Virus record (IMG/VR): IMGVR_UViG_3300048118_000009
Coordinates: 1 to 36,296 of that record
Strand: one strand, 5' to 3'
DNA length: 36,296 nt
DNA from: a virus
Shown: piece by piece, positions 1 to 36,296 of the stretch
How the letters are laid out: each line of letters starts with the position of its first letter
Position numbering within the stretch: the first letter of the stretch is position 1
Notes under the pieces: model-generated
What the model was told of the DNA's origin: nothing
Databases searched by the model: none
What the model saw: the letters and a program-made list of their open reading frames with translations, nothing else
Position numbers and translations under genes: made by a program

Positions 1-3000
1 ACAAAGCCAAAGAAGTAATACTAAAATAGAACAGATCACGAGAATAGAAGTCATAGTCAGTCCCTAACACAGCGCCTTTGTTCAACACGTTAGCATCGTA
101 GTTAATTGCTACACCGTCTGACGAAGGTACTGTAGAACCCGATGTCATGTTGAAGACTATAGCTAGATCAAGATCGTCACCAAGAGCTATGTGGTTCGGG
201 TCTGTTACTGCGTCTAGTTGAGTCTTGTCCATTTGGTTTATGTAAGATGGTGCTGCATATTGAAATACGTCAGTAGTATCGCCAACAATGTAAAAATTAG
301 CGCCTGAATTAGCAAAAGCAAAACCTCTTGGAGTAGTTTCTTGAGAAGCAACACTAAAACTTATAGTGCTGTAACTAGCCGTAGATAAATCCCAAGCAGT
401 AGACAAGTTGTATTGATGTACAGAGTCTGAGTTAAAGCCAAGAACATACATTTCTGTTCCATCATTATTAAACTGAATACTAGCAGGTGTTGATTCTTGA
501 GACGTAACGCTAAAACTTACAGAGTCATAACTAGCCGTAGATACATCCCAAGCAGTAGATAATGTGTATTGATATACCGTGTCGTTAGTTAAACCAAGCA
601 TATACATTTTTGTTCCGTCTGATTTGAATGCAATATCATACGGATTAGTATCTTGACTGCTTACAGAAAAACTTACACTGTCATAAGAAGCTGTAGACAA
701 ATCCCAAGCAGTAGAACACGAGTAGGCATAAACGCTATCTGCGTCTCCTGTTACAACATAAAACTTTAATCCATCATCTCTAAAGTACAATCCATTTACG
801 TTGTTATCTTGCAAAGTAAACGACACTGAGTCATAAGAACCTGTAGTTATATCAAATGGCGTTGACATAGAGTATTGATACAGAGCCTGTGGAGTTCCGT
901 TGTGTAAAACATAAAACTTAGTTCCGTCCGACTTTACCGCTATGTCTGCATAAAAAACACCAAGAGGAGGGCTGTAGCTTTTGCTTGAGTAACTAGCATT
1001 CGCTAAATTATAACCCGCAGCAGCACCCTCCATAGCCTCAGCCAACGTAGCTAACTCTGTATTCGTAGCGCCGTTTACCCAAGTCTCTGAAGCGTATGTA
1101 CCGTTAGAGTTGTACTGCCAAGTCCCTGCGTTGTTCCTGACAATATCTCTCTCGCCATCAGTGTTATCAATGACAGTCCAAGTAGTACGGTCGTCTGTGG
1201 AGATAGCGTAGTAGACTTCACCGTCACCTGCGTTTTGGTCAGCCGTCATAGAGTTGATGTCTGTCCAGTAGGTAGAGTCTATTGACTGTGTGGTGTGTAC
1301 TGGTTGGTAGCCTGTTGGGATGTTATAAGAGCCTACTAAGTATTCTGTTACTCCAGAAAAGCCAGCAATAAACATCTTAGTGCCATCATTGTTAAAAGTT
1401 ATATCAAGTGGAATTGTTTCTTGAGATGCCACAGAAAAAGACTGAGCGTAAGATGCGGTTAAAACATCAAAACCTGTAGACAATGTATACTCATACACTG
1501 CATCTCCATTAAAGCCCACAATATACATCTTAGTTCCATCATTATTGAATGTTACTCCTGCTGGATTTGAGTCTTGAGTAATATTTATATCTTGTTGCGA
1601 CCCAGCGGTAGAAACGTCAAAGGCGGTAGATAATGTGTATTGATATAGCTTATTTGTCCCGTCACCACTAAAGTACATCTTTGTGCCATCATTGTTGAAT
1701 GCTATGCCATACGGTGTTCCTTCTATGCCTCCCACATAAAAATTTTGAGAGTAACTAGCGGTAGAAATATTAAATGCAGTAGATAATGTGTACTCATTGA
1801 TGTCATCTCCCACATTCCCACTAAGGTACATCTTAGTGCCATCATTATTAAAAGTAAGTCCTCTAGGTGCAGTATCTTGAGAAGCCACACTAAAACTTAC
1901 AGAGTCATAAGAGGCTGTTGAAGTATCAAACGCAGTAGACAATGTATATTGATATATTGCATCAGTATTTTGCCCAAGAACAAACATCTTTGTGCCGTCA
2001 GTGTTAAATGCTATTCCTGTCGGATTTGATTCTTGAGAAGAAGTTGAAAAACTTTGAGAATAAGAGGAGGTAGAAATATCAAACTTGTTAGTAACAACCC
2101 CACTAAGCTCCAAATCCCCATCCGCAGCATTATAGACAACACCGTACATCTCCCAAGAACCTGACGCGACCTGAGCGTATGATGTAGGCGCTGTAGTTTC
2201 TACATAGCTACCGTCTGTGGCTGTTAAGACAAACGCGCCACTGTTGGCTTCGATGGTCTTGCCTACGTCTGCTGAGGCGAATGAGCCTGTGCCGAGTTGT
2301 AGTGTAGAAGGAATAGTATATTCGTAAATGTTGTCAGCAGTATTTTCTATAATATAAAACTTTGATAAATCAGGATTACCCGTAATTCCTAATGGCACAG
2401 TTGCCTGAGACGCGACACTAAAACTTAATGAGCTATAAGAAGCTGTTGTAATATCAAACCCAGTTGATAAATTATATTGATAAACTGTGTCGTTATTTAT
2501 TCCTACAGTTATCATTCTAGTGCCGTCTGAATTAAACTGCATACCTCTTGTGGATGTTTCTTGACTTACACTGAAGCTGTTAGAAGTATAGCTTGCAGTT
2601 GATAAATCAAAACCAGTTGTTAAAGCATATTCATAAACAGTATTATTGGTTCTTCCAACCATAAACATTTTAGTGCCATCAGTATTGAAAGCTAGATCCT
2701 GCGGAAATGTGTCTTGCGCTGTTACGGAAAAACTTTGAGAATAAGTCGCTGTTGAAACATTATAAGCTGTAGTTAAATTGTATTCGTAAACAGTATCAGT
2801 AGCACCACCCATTAAGAACATTTTTGTACCATTAGAATTAAATTCTATAGCCAATGGTTGAGTGTCTTGGCTACTTACAAGTAAACTAATACTAGCGTAA
2901 GAAGCAGTAGATATAGAATATGGAGTGGTTAAGTTGTACTGATAAATAGTTGCAGCGTTTTGACCAACCATATACAAAATAGTGCCGTCATTATTAAAAG

Positions 3001-3397
3001 ATACGCCTTGCGGCGTTCCGTCTTGACCGCCTACATAAAAAGAAGAGCTTGAACTAGCCTCATTAACTCCACCTACAACCCAATCCAAAGTAGTCGCATA
3101 AGCACTATCAAGTCTCGTGTAATTCTCTGTAGTCGAATTAACATCCCAAGAGTTATTAGTCACGCCTGACTGTGGTACTTCTTTAGTCACAGAAACGACA
3201 GGCGCAAGCACAGAGCTAGTCAGTGAGATTGAAGCTGACTCGCCGTTTGTGAAGGTCTTGGTTAGTGTGCCACTGGTGACAGAAATGTTATCTAGCGCAG
3301 TGTCCAGTGTATTAAGCTGTGTCTGCACATTAGAGGTAACAGTGTCAATGTAGTTAATCGTTGCCGCGCTATCGGCTATGTCTCGTGACTTGCTCAT
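1..3397 (-). CDS. Large tail protein with three groups of five propeller-like repeats (runs off left edge)
   Basis: Starts MSKSRDIADSAATIN at 3397, right after the stop of the upstream 98-residue gene, and stays open to the left edge. Joined across the circular junction to 36093-36296 it would be about 1140 residues. The N-terminal part resembles coiled or linker regions of environmental tail fibres (motif SNVQTQL). The rest is built from about 15 degenerate units of roughly 53 residues with a core like GIxFNxDGTKMYxxG followed by DxVYQYTLSTAFDxSTASY. This looks like NHL/WD-type beta-propeller blades. The units fall into three blocks of five, separated by non-repeat inserts. Role inferred: distal tail or receptor-binding protein in the adhesion cluster next to the fibre gene. 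The last 15 residues at the left edge differ from the right-end copy. Alternative: a host-surface glycan-binding or baseplate-like decoration. Confidence 0.85.
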   Translation of the reverse strand, partial: MSKSRDIADSAATINYIDTVTSNVQTQLNTLDTALDNISVTSGTLTKTFTNGESASISLTSSVLAPVVSVTKEVPQSGVTNNSWDVNSTTENYTRLDSAYATTLDWVVGGVNEASSSSSFYVGGQDGTPQGVSFNNDGTILYMVGQNAATIYQYNLTTPYSISTASYASISLLVSSQDTQPLAIEFNSNGTKMFLMGGATDTVYEYNLTTAYNVSTATYSQSFSVTAQDTFPQDLAFNTDGTKMFMVGRTNNTVYEYALTTGFDLSTASYTSNSFSVSQETSTRGMQFNSDGTRMITVGINNDTVYQYNLSTGFDITTASYSSLSFSVASQATVPLGITGNPDLSKFYIIENTADNIYEYTIPSTLQLGTGSFASADVGKTIEANSGAFVLTATDGSYVETTAPTSYAQVASGSWEMYGVVYNAADGDLELSGVVTNKFDISTSSYSQSFSTSSQESNPTGIAFNTDGTKMFVLGQNTDAIYQYTLSTAFDTSTASYDSVSFSVASQDTAPRGLTFNNDGTKMYLSGNVGDDINEYTLSTAFNISTASYSQNFYVGGIEGTPYGIAFNNDGTKMYFSGDGTNKLYQYTLSTAFDVSTAGSQQDINITQDSNPAGVTFNNDGTKMYIVGFNGDAVYEYTLSTGFDVLTASYAQSFSVASQETIPLDITFNNDGTKMFIAGFSGVTEYLVGSYNIPTGYQPVHTTQSIDSTYWTDINSMTADQNAGDGEVYYAISTDDRTTWTVIDNTDGERDIVRNNAGTWQYNSNGTYASETWVNGATNTELATLAEAMEGAAAGYNLANASYSSKSYSPPLGVFYADIAVKSDGTKFYVLHNGTPQALYQYSMSTPFDITTGSYDSVSFTLQDNNVNGLYFRDDGLKFYVVTGDADSVYAYSCSTAWDLSTASYDSVSFSVSSQDTNPYDIAFKSDGTKMYMLGLTNDTVYQYTLSTAWDVSTASYDSVSFSVTSQESTPASIQFNNDGTEMYVLGFNSDSVHQYNLSTAWDLSTASYSTISFSVASQETTPRGFAFANSGANFYIVGDTTDVFQYAAPSYINQMDKTQLDAVTDPNHIALGDDLDLAIVFNMTSGSTVPSSDGVAINYDANVLNKGAVLGTDYDFYSRDLFYFSITSLAL
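47..178. repeat. Terminal redundancy, left copy
   Basis: Positions 47-178 match 36165-36296 with three mismatches (62, 68, 74). From 75/36193 onward the match is exact for 104 bp and ends at the right edge. Left of 47 the two copies diverge in DNA, yet their translations still align weakly (ITSLA against ITALA). This is the signature of a circular or circularly permuted genome whose overlap falls in a variable tail gene, with two alleles in the source population. A unit genome of about 36,118 bp is implied. Confidence 0.8.
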
Positions 3398-3399
3398 CG

Positions 3400-3696
3400 T
3401 TATACCTCTGGTTCTGTAGGCCAAGTAACTTCGTTAGGAAAGCCTGCTTGACTTGGAATGTCTCTTAATGCTTGGCGGTAGACTGTCCATACTGCTTTAT
3501 CTACTGGCGCATCTGCTACTTGCGTCCAATCTGACTCTGTTAGTTTAGCGTCTCGCTCTTTGCGAATCTCAGCAGCAGATCGGTCATATGCACCTGCTGC
3601 CCACGCTGCTTCTTTTGCATCTATCGCAGATTGCTCTTCTTCAGTTAGAGGAATCTCAGTAATTATATTTGTATTCACATCCAATATTTTTTTCAT
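3400..3696 (-). CDS. Tail fibre assembly / chaperone-like protein
   Basis: 98 residues. The C-terminal half has the pattern RDAKLTESDWTQVADAP then YRQALRDIPSQ, GFPNEVTWP. This resembles the small proteins found beside fibre genes in many tailed phages (tail fibre assembly / XkdW-like, with the recurrent DWTQ...YRQALRD...P..FP..V.WP signature). The charged N-terminus (LTEEEQSAIDAKEAAW) is probably helical. It sits between the fibre gene and the propeller gene, as expected for a chaperone or linker of adhesion proteins. The family assignment is by motif memory; the chaperone role is inferred from position. Confidence 0.7.
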   Translation of the reverse strand: MKKILDVNTNIITEIPLTEEEQSAIDAKEAAWAAGAYDRSAAEIRKERDAKLTESDWTQVADAPVDKAVWTVYRQALRDIPSQAGFPNEVTWPTEPEV

Positions 3697-28793: not shown

Positions 28794-28823
28794 ATAATAC
28801 AAAATACTTTTATCTAATGTCAA
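28794..28823 (-). promoter_or_regulatory. Promoter P3 (sigma70-like)
   Basis: TTGACA (28823-28818), 18 bp, TATTAT (28799-28794) on the minus strand, overlapping the end of the 65-residue gene. Drives the OB-fold-like gene at 28746. Confidence 0.75.
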
Positions 28824-29017
28824 CCATTCTGGTTAATAAAAGTTTCCCTTCCTATTGCTTTATCTATCGCGTGGCATTCAAGGCAGTACCAGCAGACTCT
28901 GTACATAACCATCTGGCCATCAGTAACTCTCTCTTTGAACCCTATCACCTCACCCATTACCTCTCCGCATCTACATGGCTTCTCTCTAAGATCATCTATG
29001 TTCTCAGTGTTTGTCAT
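28820..29017 (-). CDS. Small zinc-ribbon-like protein (65 aa)
   Basis: MTNTENIDDLREKPCRCGEV, then MYRVCWYCLECHAIDKAIGR. CxC and CxxCxxC(H) clusters at residues 15-17 and about 42-48 make a plausible zinc ribbon. The ribosome site is AAAGG before ATG at 29017. It is the first gene downstream of the 29018-29577 non-coding block on the minus strand. Function unknown; possibly a transcription or translation modifier. Confidence 0.7.
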   Translation of the reverse strand: MTNTENIDDLREKPCRCGEVMGEVIGFKERVTDGQMVMYRVCWYCLECHAIDKAIGRETFINQNG

Positions 29018-29039: not shown

Positions 29040-29320
29040 GAGGATTTGCGAGCAAGCAAGCCCCAACCCACGGGAAGTAGGTTTCGGGACGTTGCATTGC
29101 CTTCGGAGCCGTCAGTGTGGACAGCGAGGCCGTGTTATTGAGTCAGATAACACAAGCAAGTCTGCAAGGGATGCTGACTCCATCCCCCCGCGCCGCATTC
29201 AGACTTTTAGCAAGTTGCGGTGCCCCCGCGCTACTCTTTTGGGGCTTTAAACTACGATCGGTGAGAGACCCTTTATAGGTGACATATCCTTCGCAGTCGA
29301 GTCGGAGACTAAATCTATAG
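29040..29320 (+). ncRNA. Structured non-coding RNA with kissing loop and pseudoknot
   Basis: No convincing ORF on either strand. On the plus strand, hairpin A (GTGTTAT 29132-29138 / ATAACAC 29147-29153) has loop UGAGUCAG. Hairpin B (GGGATG 29168-29173 / CATCCC 29181-29186) has loop CUGACUC. The loops are complementary over 7 nt, a kissing interaction. AAGTCTG (29158-29164) can pair with CAGACTT (29200-29206), which lies inside the loop of helix GCGCCGCA/TGCGGTGC (29190-29197/29216-29223), a pseudoknot. AAGCCCC near 29060-29064 could pair with GGGGCTT at 29241-29247. A G.U in the 8-bp helix is a C-A mismatch on the minus strand, so plus-strand transcription is favoured. It may be one RNA of about 530 nt ending at the 29567 terminator. 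Reminiscent of large phage RNAs such as ROOL or GOLLD, without proof of kinship. Confidence 0.6.
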
Positions 29321-29330
29321 AGAAAATATG

Positions 29331-29358
29331 TTGAAGAACACAACATATAGTGTAGAAT
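29331..29358 (+). promoter_or_regulatory. Plus-strand promoter candidate
   Basis: TTGAAG (29331-29336), 16 bp, TAGAAT (29353-29358). The -10 and spacer equal those of promoter P2. Predicted start near 29365 coincides with the first base of the outer helix of the downstream RNA. An 8-bp inverted repeat (ATATGTTG/CAACATAT) overlaps the -35 and could be an operator. A weaker minus-strand promoter is also conceivable here. Confidence 0.5.
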
Positions 29359-29364
29359 AGCCCT

Positions 29365-29567
29365 TGTCGGGTTTCTGGCTACACTTGCTTCTCCGTATTG
29401 ATCTAGCCGGAATTCAGGGCCTTAACAACCCACCGACATCTAACTTTCACAGATTACTCTTACAGAAATAATTCTGCAAGCGAAAACGTGATTTAATCTA
29501 TATGCTTTTTATTTCTGATTCTTTTTTTTAAGTCCCGACACGTTGTGAAACGCTCGGGCTTTTTTTT
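29365..29567 (+). ncRNA. Candidate small RNA 2 with anti-Shine-Dalgarno loop
   Basis: About 203 nt between a promoter-like element and a strong terminator. TGTCGG (29365-29370) pairs with CCGACA (29433-29438). Nested inside, CTGGCTA (29375-29381) pairs with TAGCCGG (29404-29410, one U.G). The 22-nt loop (29382-29403) exposes CUUCUCCGU (29388-29396), complementary to ACGGAGAA in the ribosome sites of the genes starting at 27071 and 27783. A 3' intrinsic terminator has a GUGA tetraloop. No ORF. Regulation in trans is inferred; the folds are seen by hand and not energy-scored. Confidence 0.55.
29534..29567 (+). terminator. Rho-independent terminator, plus strand
   Basis: CCCGA/TCGGG outer stem, small internal loop, CGTT/AACG inner stem closed by a GUGA (GNRA) loop, then C and eight Ts. 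The opposite strand has no T-run after the stem, so it serves plus-strand transcription. It ends just before the minus-strand gene at 29578. Confidence 0.85.
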
Positions 29568-29577
29568 GACTGAAATT

Positions 29578-29796
29578 TTACACGTTGCGATCTGAGATCT
29601 CTTGATCAATAAGAAACTCAGCGTACTGGATTATCTTGCGCAAATCCTCAATGCCGTTCTTGTCCTTCCATCGAGTAATGTACTTGATAATATTCCCCTC
29701 GCAATAGCCGAGCTTATTCTCAAGGATATATTGAATAGGCTGAATCTTGAGTTTTTCGTAGTGAGTCCCGCCGACTTGGCGCCTAGGATTTATCAT
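29578..29796 (-). CDS. DUF3310-like protein (72 aa)
   Basis: MINPRRQVGGTHYEKLKIQP then IQYILENKLGYCEGNIIKYI, TRWKDKNGIEDLRKIIQYAE. The GGxHYxxxxIQPxxyI...GNxIKYixRxkxKnGxEDLrKaxxY pattern is diagnostic of the DUF3310 family, widespread in phages and related in part to T7 gp1.7-type nucleotide-kinase accessory proteins. Biochemical role not settled. TAATG overlap with the upstream gene. Confidence 0.85.
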   Translation of the reverse strand: MINPRRQVGGTHYEKLKIQPIQYILENKLGYCEGNIIKYITRWKDKNGIEDLRKIIQYAEFLIDQEISDRNV

Positions 29797-36093: not shown

Positions 36094-36296
36094 TAAACAA
36101 CCCGCACTTTCAGATTATTCCCTGCCAACGCTGTAATCCTTACAGAGTTCTGAGCAGGAGCATCGAAGTCATAGTCAGTTCCTAAGACAGCACCTTTGTT
36201 CAACACGTTAGCATCGTAGTTAATTGCTACACCGTCTGACGAAGGTACTGTAGAACCCGATGTCATGTTGAAGACTATAGCTAGATCAAGATCGTC
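36093..36296 (-). CDS. C-terminal end of the large tail propeller protein (continues from position 1 across the circular junction)
   Basis: The minus strand from 36296 reads the same 44 residues found at 178-47 on the left (DDLDLAIVFNMTSGS at the start), in the same frame. It then ends with ITALAGNNLKVRVV and a TAA at 36095-36093. The stop overlaps the ATG of the metallophosphoesterase gene by one base (TAATG), so the two are translationally coupled. This is the true C-terminus of the tail protein that begins at 3397 once the genome is circularised. Confidence 0.85.
   Translation of the reverse strand, partial: DDLDLAIVFNMTSGSTVPSSDGVAINYDANVLNKGAVLGTDYDFDAPAQNSVRITALAGNNLKVRVV
36165..36296. 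repeat. Terminal redundancy, right copy
   Basis: Partner of 47-178 at a constant offset of 36,118 bp. The reading frame of the tail gene is kept across the join, which supports true circularity over a chance repeat. Confidence 0.8.

Follow-up and report, generated by a model that had tools for sequence, protein, structure and literature searches.

Sense RNAs controlled by an overlapping antisense RNA are best known from plasmid copy-number control. In ColE1, a long structured RNA (RNA II) that can adopt alternative folds is met at its 5' end by a shorter antisense RNA (RNA I), and the sense RNA serves as the replication primer by way of a persistent hybrid that RNase H processes. Among phages, the sar RNA of P22 is a convergent antisense RNA that targets the ribosome site of ant, and RNAs of the put type (approximately 70 nt) allow RNA polymerase to pass terminators in cis.

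In plasmids of the IncI-alpha, IncB/O and IncK groups (PMC10724649), an antisense RNA (RNAI or Inc RNA) acts against stem-loop I of the rep leader, and the loop bases set specificity and compatibility; competition between a pseudoknot and the antisense RNA is named in the title of Asano and Mizobuchi 1998, cited in the same source. PMC12286853 describes GOLLD and ROOL as large ornate phage RNAs with pseudoknots and of unknown function, often found near phage tRNA genes.

The locus described here lies in a 36,296-base virus record (the window, by which we mean the whole stretch of DNA analysed) from a phage with a P22-type head. It appears to encode a previously uncatalogued structured RNA of ~400 nt, present in a group of uncultured phages and overlapped at its front end by a predicted antisense RNA. 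With the IncI-alpha-type systems it shares a 5' stem-loop whose loop pairs downstream as a pseudoknot and a predicted antisense RNA complementary to that loop; it differs in that the downstream gene varies and is not rep, that the carrier is a phage and not a plasmid, and that a further folded domain of 250–350 nt is present, with no sequence relation shown. The likeness to ColE1 RNA II/RNA I lies in a long structured RNA, an antisense RNA over its 5' end and alternative sense folds, whereas no Rfam match to the ColE1 RNAs was obtained and the predicted convergent starts here flank a core of 55–72 bp. As with sar, the predicted antisense RNA is convergent and belongs to a P22-type phage, but no ant gene was identified at the locus. 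HK022 put, likewise structured and from a phage, stands early in its operon and may be followed by varying genes; the RNA described here is much larger and has a predicted antisense partner. Like GOLLD and ROOL, it is a large ornate phage RNA with pseudoknots; unlike them, it has no covariance-model match, is not near tRNAs, measures ~400 nt and has a predicted antisense overlap.

The locus and its relatives

A portal protein (phrog_156) and a major head protein (phrog_283) were assigned in the window, and its terminase shares 46–48% identity with those of Pseudomonas phage AH02 and Escherichia phage Sortsne. The main genes lie on the minus strand. The locus occupies 560 bases without a credible gene, between a DUF3310 gene (29578–29796) and the following gene:

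28820–29017, minus strand: gene for a 65-aa cysteine-rich protein, directly after the sense RNA, replaced by other genes in relatives

The 65-aa protein had no match in PHROGs or Pfam. The initial annotation had seen no credible gene in this region, and this was confirmed: the only sizeable minus-strand ORF (29143–29346, 67 aa) contains a base inserted in the window only, so its frame is not common to the relatives, and a conserved protein frame, looked for among the relatives of the window's type, was absent, single-base indels (one of them within the 67-aa ORF) being found among these sequences.

Homologues were taken from IMG/VR, where searches with NinG and with the 65-aa protein returned 80 and 24 loci, respectively. 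Blastn with the gap gave strong matches in relatives of the window's type (F1) and two short conserved islands in the others. A core pattern built from the two islands matched 45 viral contigs; a version allowing too short a gap missed four of 12 records, three with longer cores (G006, G007, G010) and one with a deletion (G009/L002). A second, looser pattern matched 59 contigs, with four new ones of the second type (F2) by eye, three of them F2 also by the script rule and the fourth (L177) ending at the contig end. Three matches of a loose core pattern in bacterial genomes, with no promoter or terminator nearby by eye, were discarded as chance. In all, 49 distinct cores were found among 77 loci; the sequences are related to one another, so that the counts given below are not counts of independent events.

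Two types share this core, F1 with 11 and F2 with 34 distinct sequences (the latter by script); L091, L110, L136 and L139 were left unclassed for the 3' domain. Similarity between F1 and F2 was detected by nhmmer only over the first 104–137 nt of the F1 minus-strand RNAs and not between the 3' domains, and homology of these domains was rejected as a reading. The 3' domain of the sense RNA thus has two forms without detectable similarity that occupy the same slot. By eye, both show a hairpin followed by ACCGCA...UGCGG. The F2 alignment (A1) comprised 30 of the 34 sequences, leaving out L099, L103 and L125, in which the anchor was missed, and one duplicate; alignment A3 comprised 32 of the 44 five-prime sequences. 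INPHARED phages gave no match to the RNA of the window, L087 or L099, nor, by megablast, to a 12.3-kb part of the window, and a literature search of open-licence PMC papers found none on this RNA.

Strand and extent of the sense RNA

29045–29437, minus strand: sense structured RNA, ~393 nt (covariation, strand test, promoter position)
29045–29301, minus strand: F1-type 3' domain of the sense RNA, 257 nt (11 sequences, covariation)
29406–29437, minus strand: 5' hairpin H1, GUCGG (29433–29437) paired with CCGGC (29406–29410), with an inner GGG/CCC stem

The predicted 5' end is 29437, where the RNA begins GUCGGUGGG. Its 3' boundary was set at the conserved ...GCUUGCUCGCAAA, just upstream of the ribosome site of the next gene, and marks the limit of conservation only, there being no terminator on the minus strand.

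Plain RNAalifold, run on both strands, did not discriminate between them, as the fold of each strand favours the wobble pairs of that strand, and an unbiased helix search was therefore used. Read on the minus strand, F1 gave 11 G-U cells and no A-C cells, and F2 gave 47 G-U cells against 25 A-C cells, of which 17 came from one doubtful, perhaps spurious, four-pair helix (columns 29–32/223–226) kept in the totals. A separate unbiased strand search showed the same trend. The H1 partner of GUCGG was CCGAC in 36, CCGGC in 8 and CUGAC in 5 of the 49 cores, and all these changes read as G-U on the minus strand and as A-C on the plus strand. Against shuffles, the minus strand folded with a z of -4.8 and the plus strand with a z of -2.2, and the F2 RNAs on the minus strand contain GNRA (CCCA-GAAA-UGGG) and UNCG (AAGCC-UUCG-GGCUU) tetraloops. 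Because the covarying helices give G-U pairs on the minus strand where the plus strand gives A-C, we place the structured RNA on the minus strand, where a highly folded RNA is almost certainly encoded. The plus-strand version of the structure, in which several helices would hold A-C mismatches, was rejected.

Folding of the 3' domains

The F1 structure (11 sequences, 81 pairs) is paired in 99.7% of cells, well above slid controls, and ten pairs show two-sided change (shuffle mean 3.3; none of 500 shuffles as high). For F2 (30 sequences, 57 pairs), 98.8% of cells are paired and 16 pairs show two-sided change (shuffle mean 9.2; again 0/500). The large structured RNA proposed in the initial annotation is thus borne out by covariation in both types, but not on the plus strand to which it had been assigned; the proposed extent, 29040–29320, falls within a unit that runs from 29045 to 29437 on the minus strand. 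In F2, a hairpin loop also pairs with the 3' end (GCCCUU/AAGGGC), a helix that competes with the 3' terminal hairpin; three of its pairs have changed on both sides, in 21 cells against 6.7 in shuffles, the pair count alone being reached in 18 of 500.

Three elements of the F1 domain had been singled out from the window:

29168–29186, minus strand: hairpin with loop GAGUCAG (kissing loop A), its middle U inserted in the window only
29131–29154, minus strand: hairpin with a covarying stem, its loop (CUGACUC, kissing loop B) invariant
29158–29206, minus strand: pseudoknot AAGUCUG (29200–29206) / CAGACUU (29158–29164), all seven pairs invariant

Both hairpins are present, their loops complementary over seven bases, and within the window this pairing is not due to chance: the full sequence contains one such pair, and 20 mononucleotide shuffles gave none. 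As a conserved 7-bp kissing loop, however, it was rejected, being perfect in the window only: the middle base is missing in 10 of the 11 F1 sequences, where 3+3 pairs then flank a bulge, one of the remaining pairs is broken in L004, and with an invariant partner loop there is no covariation. No other part of the structure is as weak as this kissing loop. Three pairs in the stem of hairpin B (helix 11) show two-sided change. The pseudoknot, annotated as AAGTCTG/CAGACTT by the helix GCGCCGCA/TGCGGTGC, is likewise present; it is invariant in 11/11 F1 sequences and uninformative either way.

A large, multi-branched fold with pseudoknots, varying downstream genes and two interchangeable 3' domains might also be expected of a stable, trans-acting noncoding RNA that perhaps forms an RNA-only complex of the GOLLD or ROOL kind, its amount limited by the antisense RNA. 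We consider this unlikely: in the window and in 12 loci, the suggested Rfam families (GOLLD, ROOL, OLE, HEARO, tmRNA and RNase P) gave no match at the curated cut-off, further scans yielded only chance-level matches to other families, no tRNA or tmRNA occurs in the 36-kb window, and the kissing loop is not kept as 7 bp. Dimers or cages, which had been suggested from the kissing loops, drew no support from any analysis run.

Predicted facing promoters, terminator and antisense RNA

29474–29479, minus strand: predicted sense promoter -35, TTGCAG (TTGNNN in 49/49 cores)
29451–29456, minus strand: predicted sense promoter -10, TAATCT (TANNNT in 49/49 cores)
29331–29358, plus strand: antisense promoter-like site, TTGAAG-16-TAGAAT (position of the -10-like hexamer)
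29366–29567, plus strand: predicted antisense RNA, ~200 nt, beginning GUCGGGUUUC
29531–29567, plus strand: predicted intrinsic terminator of the antisense RNA, a hairpin followed by eight T

The candidate sense promoter is of the sigma-70 type, with a spacer of always 17 nt in 49/49 distinct cores and 27 different spacer sequences; the distance from the -10 to the RNA start (GUCGG) is 13 nt in eight cores, including that of the window, and 5–8 nt in the other 41. On the plus strand, a -10-like hexamer lies 6–7 nt upstream of GTCGGG in 49/49 cores, and the usual spacing to a -35 is missing in four relatives (L099, L101, L103, L104). Matches to promoters in single sequences were no better than chance (two found, 1.6 expected), and the argument for both putative promoters is their fixed position across diverged sequence. 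When the same stretch was searched on both strands for a hairpin followed by at least six T, a terminator was found on the plus strand in 47/49 cores and on the minus strand in 1/49; by this test, L008 and L129 had no terminator-like site within 215 nt.

The plus-strand element, named small RNA 2 in the initial annotation, is best read as an antisense RNA, since it has its own promoter-like site and terminator and faces the sense RNA. As predicted, it is complementary to nucleotides 1–72 of the sense RNA; the predicted starts sit at the two ends of the core, which is therefore the stretch common to both RNAs (72 bp long in the window). Both transcripts, predicted from conserved signals, probably exist; a loop antisense RNA with a promoter and terminator of its own, as in IncI-alpha, is here represented by conserved sequence signals. 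The proposal that small RNA 2 and the structured region form one RNA of about 530 nt was dropped because the former has signals of its own and is read from the other strand, as an antisense RNA over the 5' end of the latter. We regard a single 530-nt plus-strand RNA as very improbable, given the strand test and the better minus-strand fold (z -4.8 against -2.2), even though the terminator is on the plus strand and the pairings exist there too.

Alternatively, only the sense RNA may be made, the plus promoter-like site being one of its hairpins and the plus terminator an insulator of the neighbouring operon. The promoter-like stretch does form a hairpin in many sequences (29326–29348), and the chance-level number of promoter matches per sequence would agree; the -10-like hexamer, fixed at 6–7 nt from the core in 49/49, and the terminator, kept in 47/49 irrespective of the neighbouring genes, make this reading rather doubtful. 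The spacer of the plus promoter (29326–29348) contains in the window a perfect inverted repeat, ATATGTTG/CAACATAT, which covaries in relatives and may serve as an operator or fold as an RNA hairpin.

A proposed switch at the 5' end

29400–29408, minus strand: S1, GGCUAGAUC, overlapping H1; the strand of the pseudoknot that lies in the 5' loop region
29307–29315, minus strand: S2, GAUUUAGUC, partner of S1 (covariation by permutation test)

S2 lies ~90 nt downstream of S1. Across 47 distinct S1/S2 sets, the duplex of S1 with its own partner on the minus strand was -13.0 kcal/mol against -11.8 kcal/mol with permuted partners, and 0/20000 permutations were as good; clear examples are GACUUUGGGG/CCCCAAAGUC (L017) and GACUCAAGA/UCUUGAGUC (L011). 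In L099, L101, L103 and L104, the S2 stretch was taken too far upstream, so that the duplexes listed for them are not the expected ones. The gain over permutation was at least as large on the plus strand (z -5.7) as on the minus strand (z -4.0), and the test therefore shows pairing but not strand. A 5' loop that pairs downstream in the same RNA, the feature that characterises the IncI-alpha leaders, is thus also found here, in the same 47 sets and at the same 0/20000. As H1 and S1 have bases in common, the H1 and S1-S2 folds are mutually exclusive, and an alternative partner for GUCGG is offered by AACCCGAC, invariant in 49/49 cores. Structure, strand and S1-S2 pairing are established by comparison of the sequences. 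The predicted antisense RNA covers S1; since it carries the complement of S1, it should compete with S2, a competition that we find plausible at somewhat less than even odds.

Among 17 F2 sequences, 30 pairs have an identity of 97% or more across the initial 120 nt of the 3' domain, and in 28 of these pairs the apical segment differs. Such rapid change is in line with a resemblance to the incompatibility loops of plasmids.

One F1 relative (L002) is without the window bases ~29376–29432, and hence without H1 and S1, and keeps the 3' domain and the terminator; the switch has thus been dispensable at least once. At this locus (L002:9280–9768), the RNA starts with a mini hairpin, GUCGG-AAAC-CCGAC, which remains after the 57-base deletion of most of the core, and both promoters are retained.

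Genomic neighbours

Gene maps were drawn for six of nine genomes. In F2 genomes, the RNA is flanked by a leftward operon (helicase, CHC2-type zinc domain, and further on terminase and portal) and a rightward operon encoding ERF and YqaJ proteins; in G008 and in the window, the right neighbours of the RNA are also leftward. By the rules used, a downstream gene was found at 40 of the 49 loci and none at nine. The next minus-strand gene was the 65-aa gene in 23/40, a member of three other families in 7, 4 and 4, and a single gene in L018 and L133 (326 nt from the RNA in the latter), making at least five unrelated groups. There is thus no single conserved downstream gene at the 40 loci that would correspond to the adjacent rep gene activated by the pseudoknot in the IncI-alpha model. 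In L020–L023, relatives of the 65-aa protein are encoded immediately next to NinG, with the RNA absent. Because the downstream genes vary and the 65-aa relatives occur without the RNA, the latter is an independent unit and not the leader of one gene.

These arrangements bear on another possibility, that the sense RNA is a cis-acting leader which, like HK022 put, modifies RNA polymerase for terminator read-through of the leftward operon, with the antisense RNA a by-product or tuner. The RNA does head the leftward operon, opposite the rightward recombination operon, in the F2 relatives, and it is retained while the downstream genes vary, as expected for an element acting on the polymerase. Its ~400 nt, however, far exceed a put RNA, the next gene in L172 seems to have its own promoter (a separate promoter-like site ahead of the gene, after the RNA), and neither the S1-S2 switch nor the facing promoter of the antisense RNA would be explained; we therefore judge a put-like leader improbable.

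In L018 (L018:5117–5592), the orientation of the RNA unit with respect to NinG is the reverse of that at the other F1 loci, and the gene after it, small and lipoprotein-like, is unrelated. In L087 and L086-type relatives, short repeats (TTGCCACGGCAA and dyads of the type TCTACA...TGTAGA) between the terminator and the ERF gene look like operators.

Proposed role

We favour, at a probability of roughly 0.5, a sense RNA with two alternative folds that is controlled by the antisense RNA, likely for dosage control. The facing promoters would give two RNAs from one locus. The sense RNA would form, in order, H1, the pairing of S1 with S2 ~90 nt on, and the large folded 3' domain; the antisense RNA would start at the opposite end of the 72-bp core, stop at the intrinsic terminator and, by binding at S1, block the S1-S2 fold. 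Folded through S1-S2, the sense RNA might promote replication of the phage DNA, as a primer or activator, or alternatively raise expression from the leftward helicase operon; the antisense RNA, which would accumulate with the genome copies, would then turn the sense RNA down. Dosage control, whether its target is replication or the leftward operon, is a tentative and, taken alone, not a likely purpose, but we would place it first, with polymerase modification and a trans-acting RNA next. Neither a DNA polymerase nor an O-type initiator was identified among the proteins scanned, which covered part of the genes, and the GC skew, looked at as an origin test, showed no switch at the RNA locus. A bolder version, which we hold to be less likely still, is that these phages start or meter replication by RNA and not by an initiator protein, the pseudoknot fold being active, the hypervariable loop determining incompatibility (a superinfection exclusion by RNA) and the two unrelated domains playing the same role.

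If the favoured reading is true, the RNA would represent a new class of structured RNA in phages, absent from Rfam 15, and an antisense switch of the plasmid kind in a phage, for which the P22 precedent involves a much smaller RNA. One 5' switch would be joined to two dissimilar large RNA domains and to interchangeable downstream genes, and as the same switch is joined to both domains, it could be asked directly what they have in common. The hypervariable loop would predict specificity groups among co-infecting phages.

Other features of the window

The ends of the record (6–178 and 36124–36296) form a 173-base direct repeat with 90% identity, inside a tail-like gene, and represent either an imperfectly assembled terminal redundancy or a repeat internal to the gene. 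On the minus strand, a frame of 1141 aa (2–3424) runs off the end of the record and is built from many repeats of the form FNNDGTKMYxxG...YxLSTAxDxSTASY, by which it resembles a propeller-type adhesin or tail protein.
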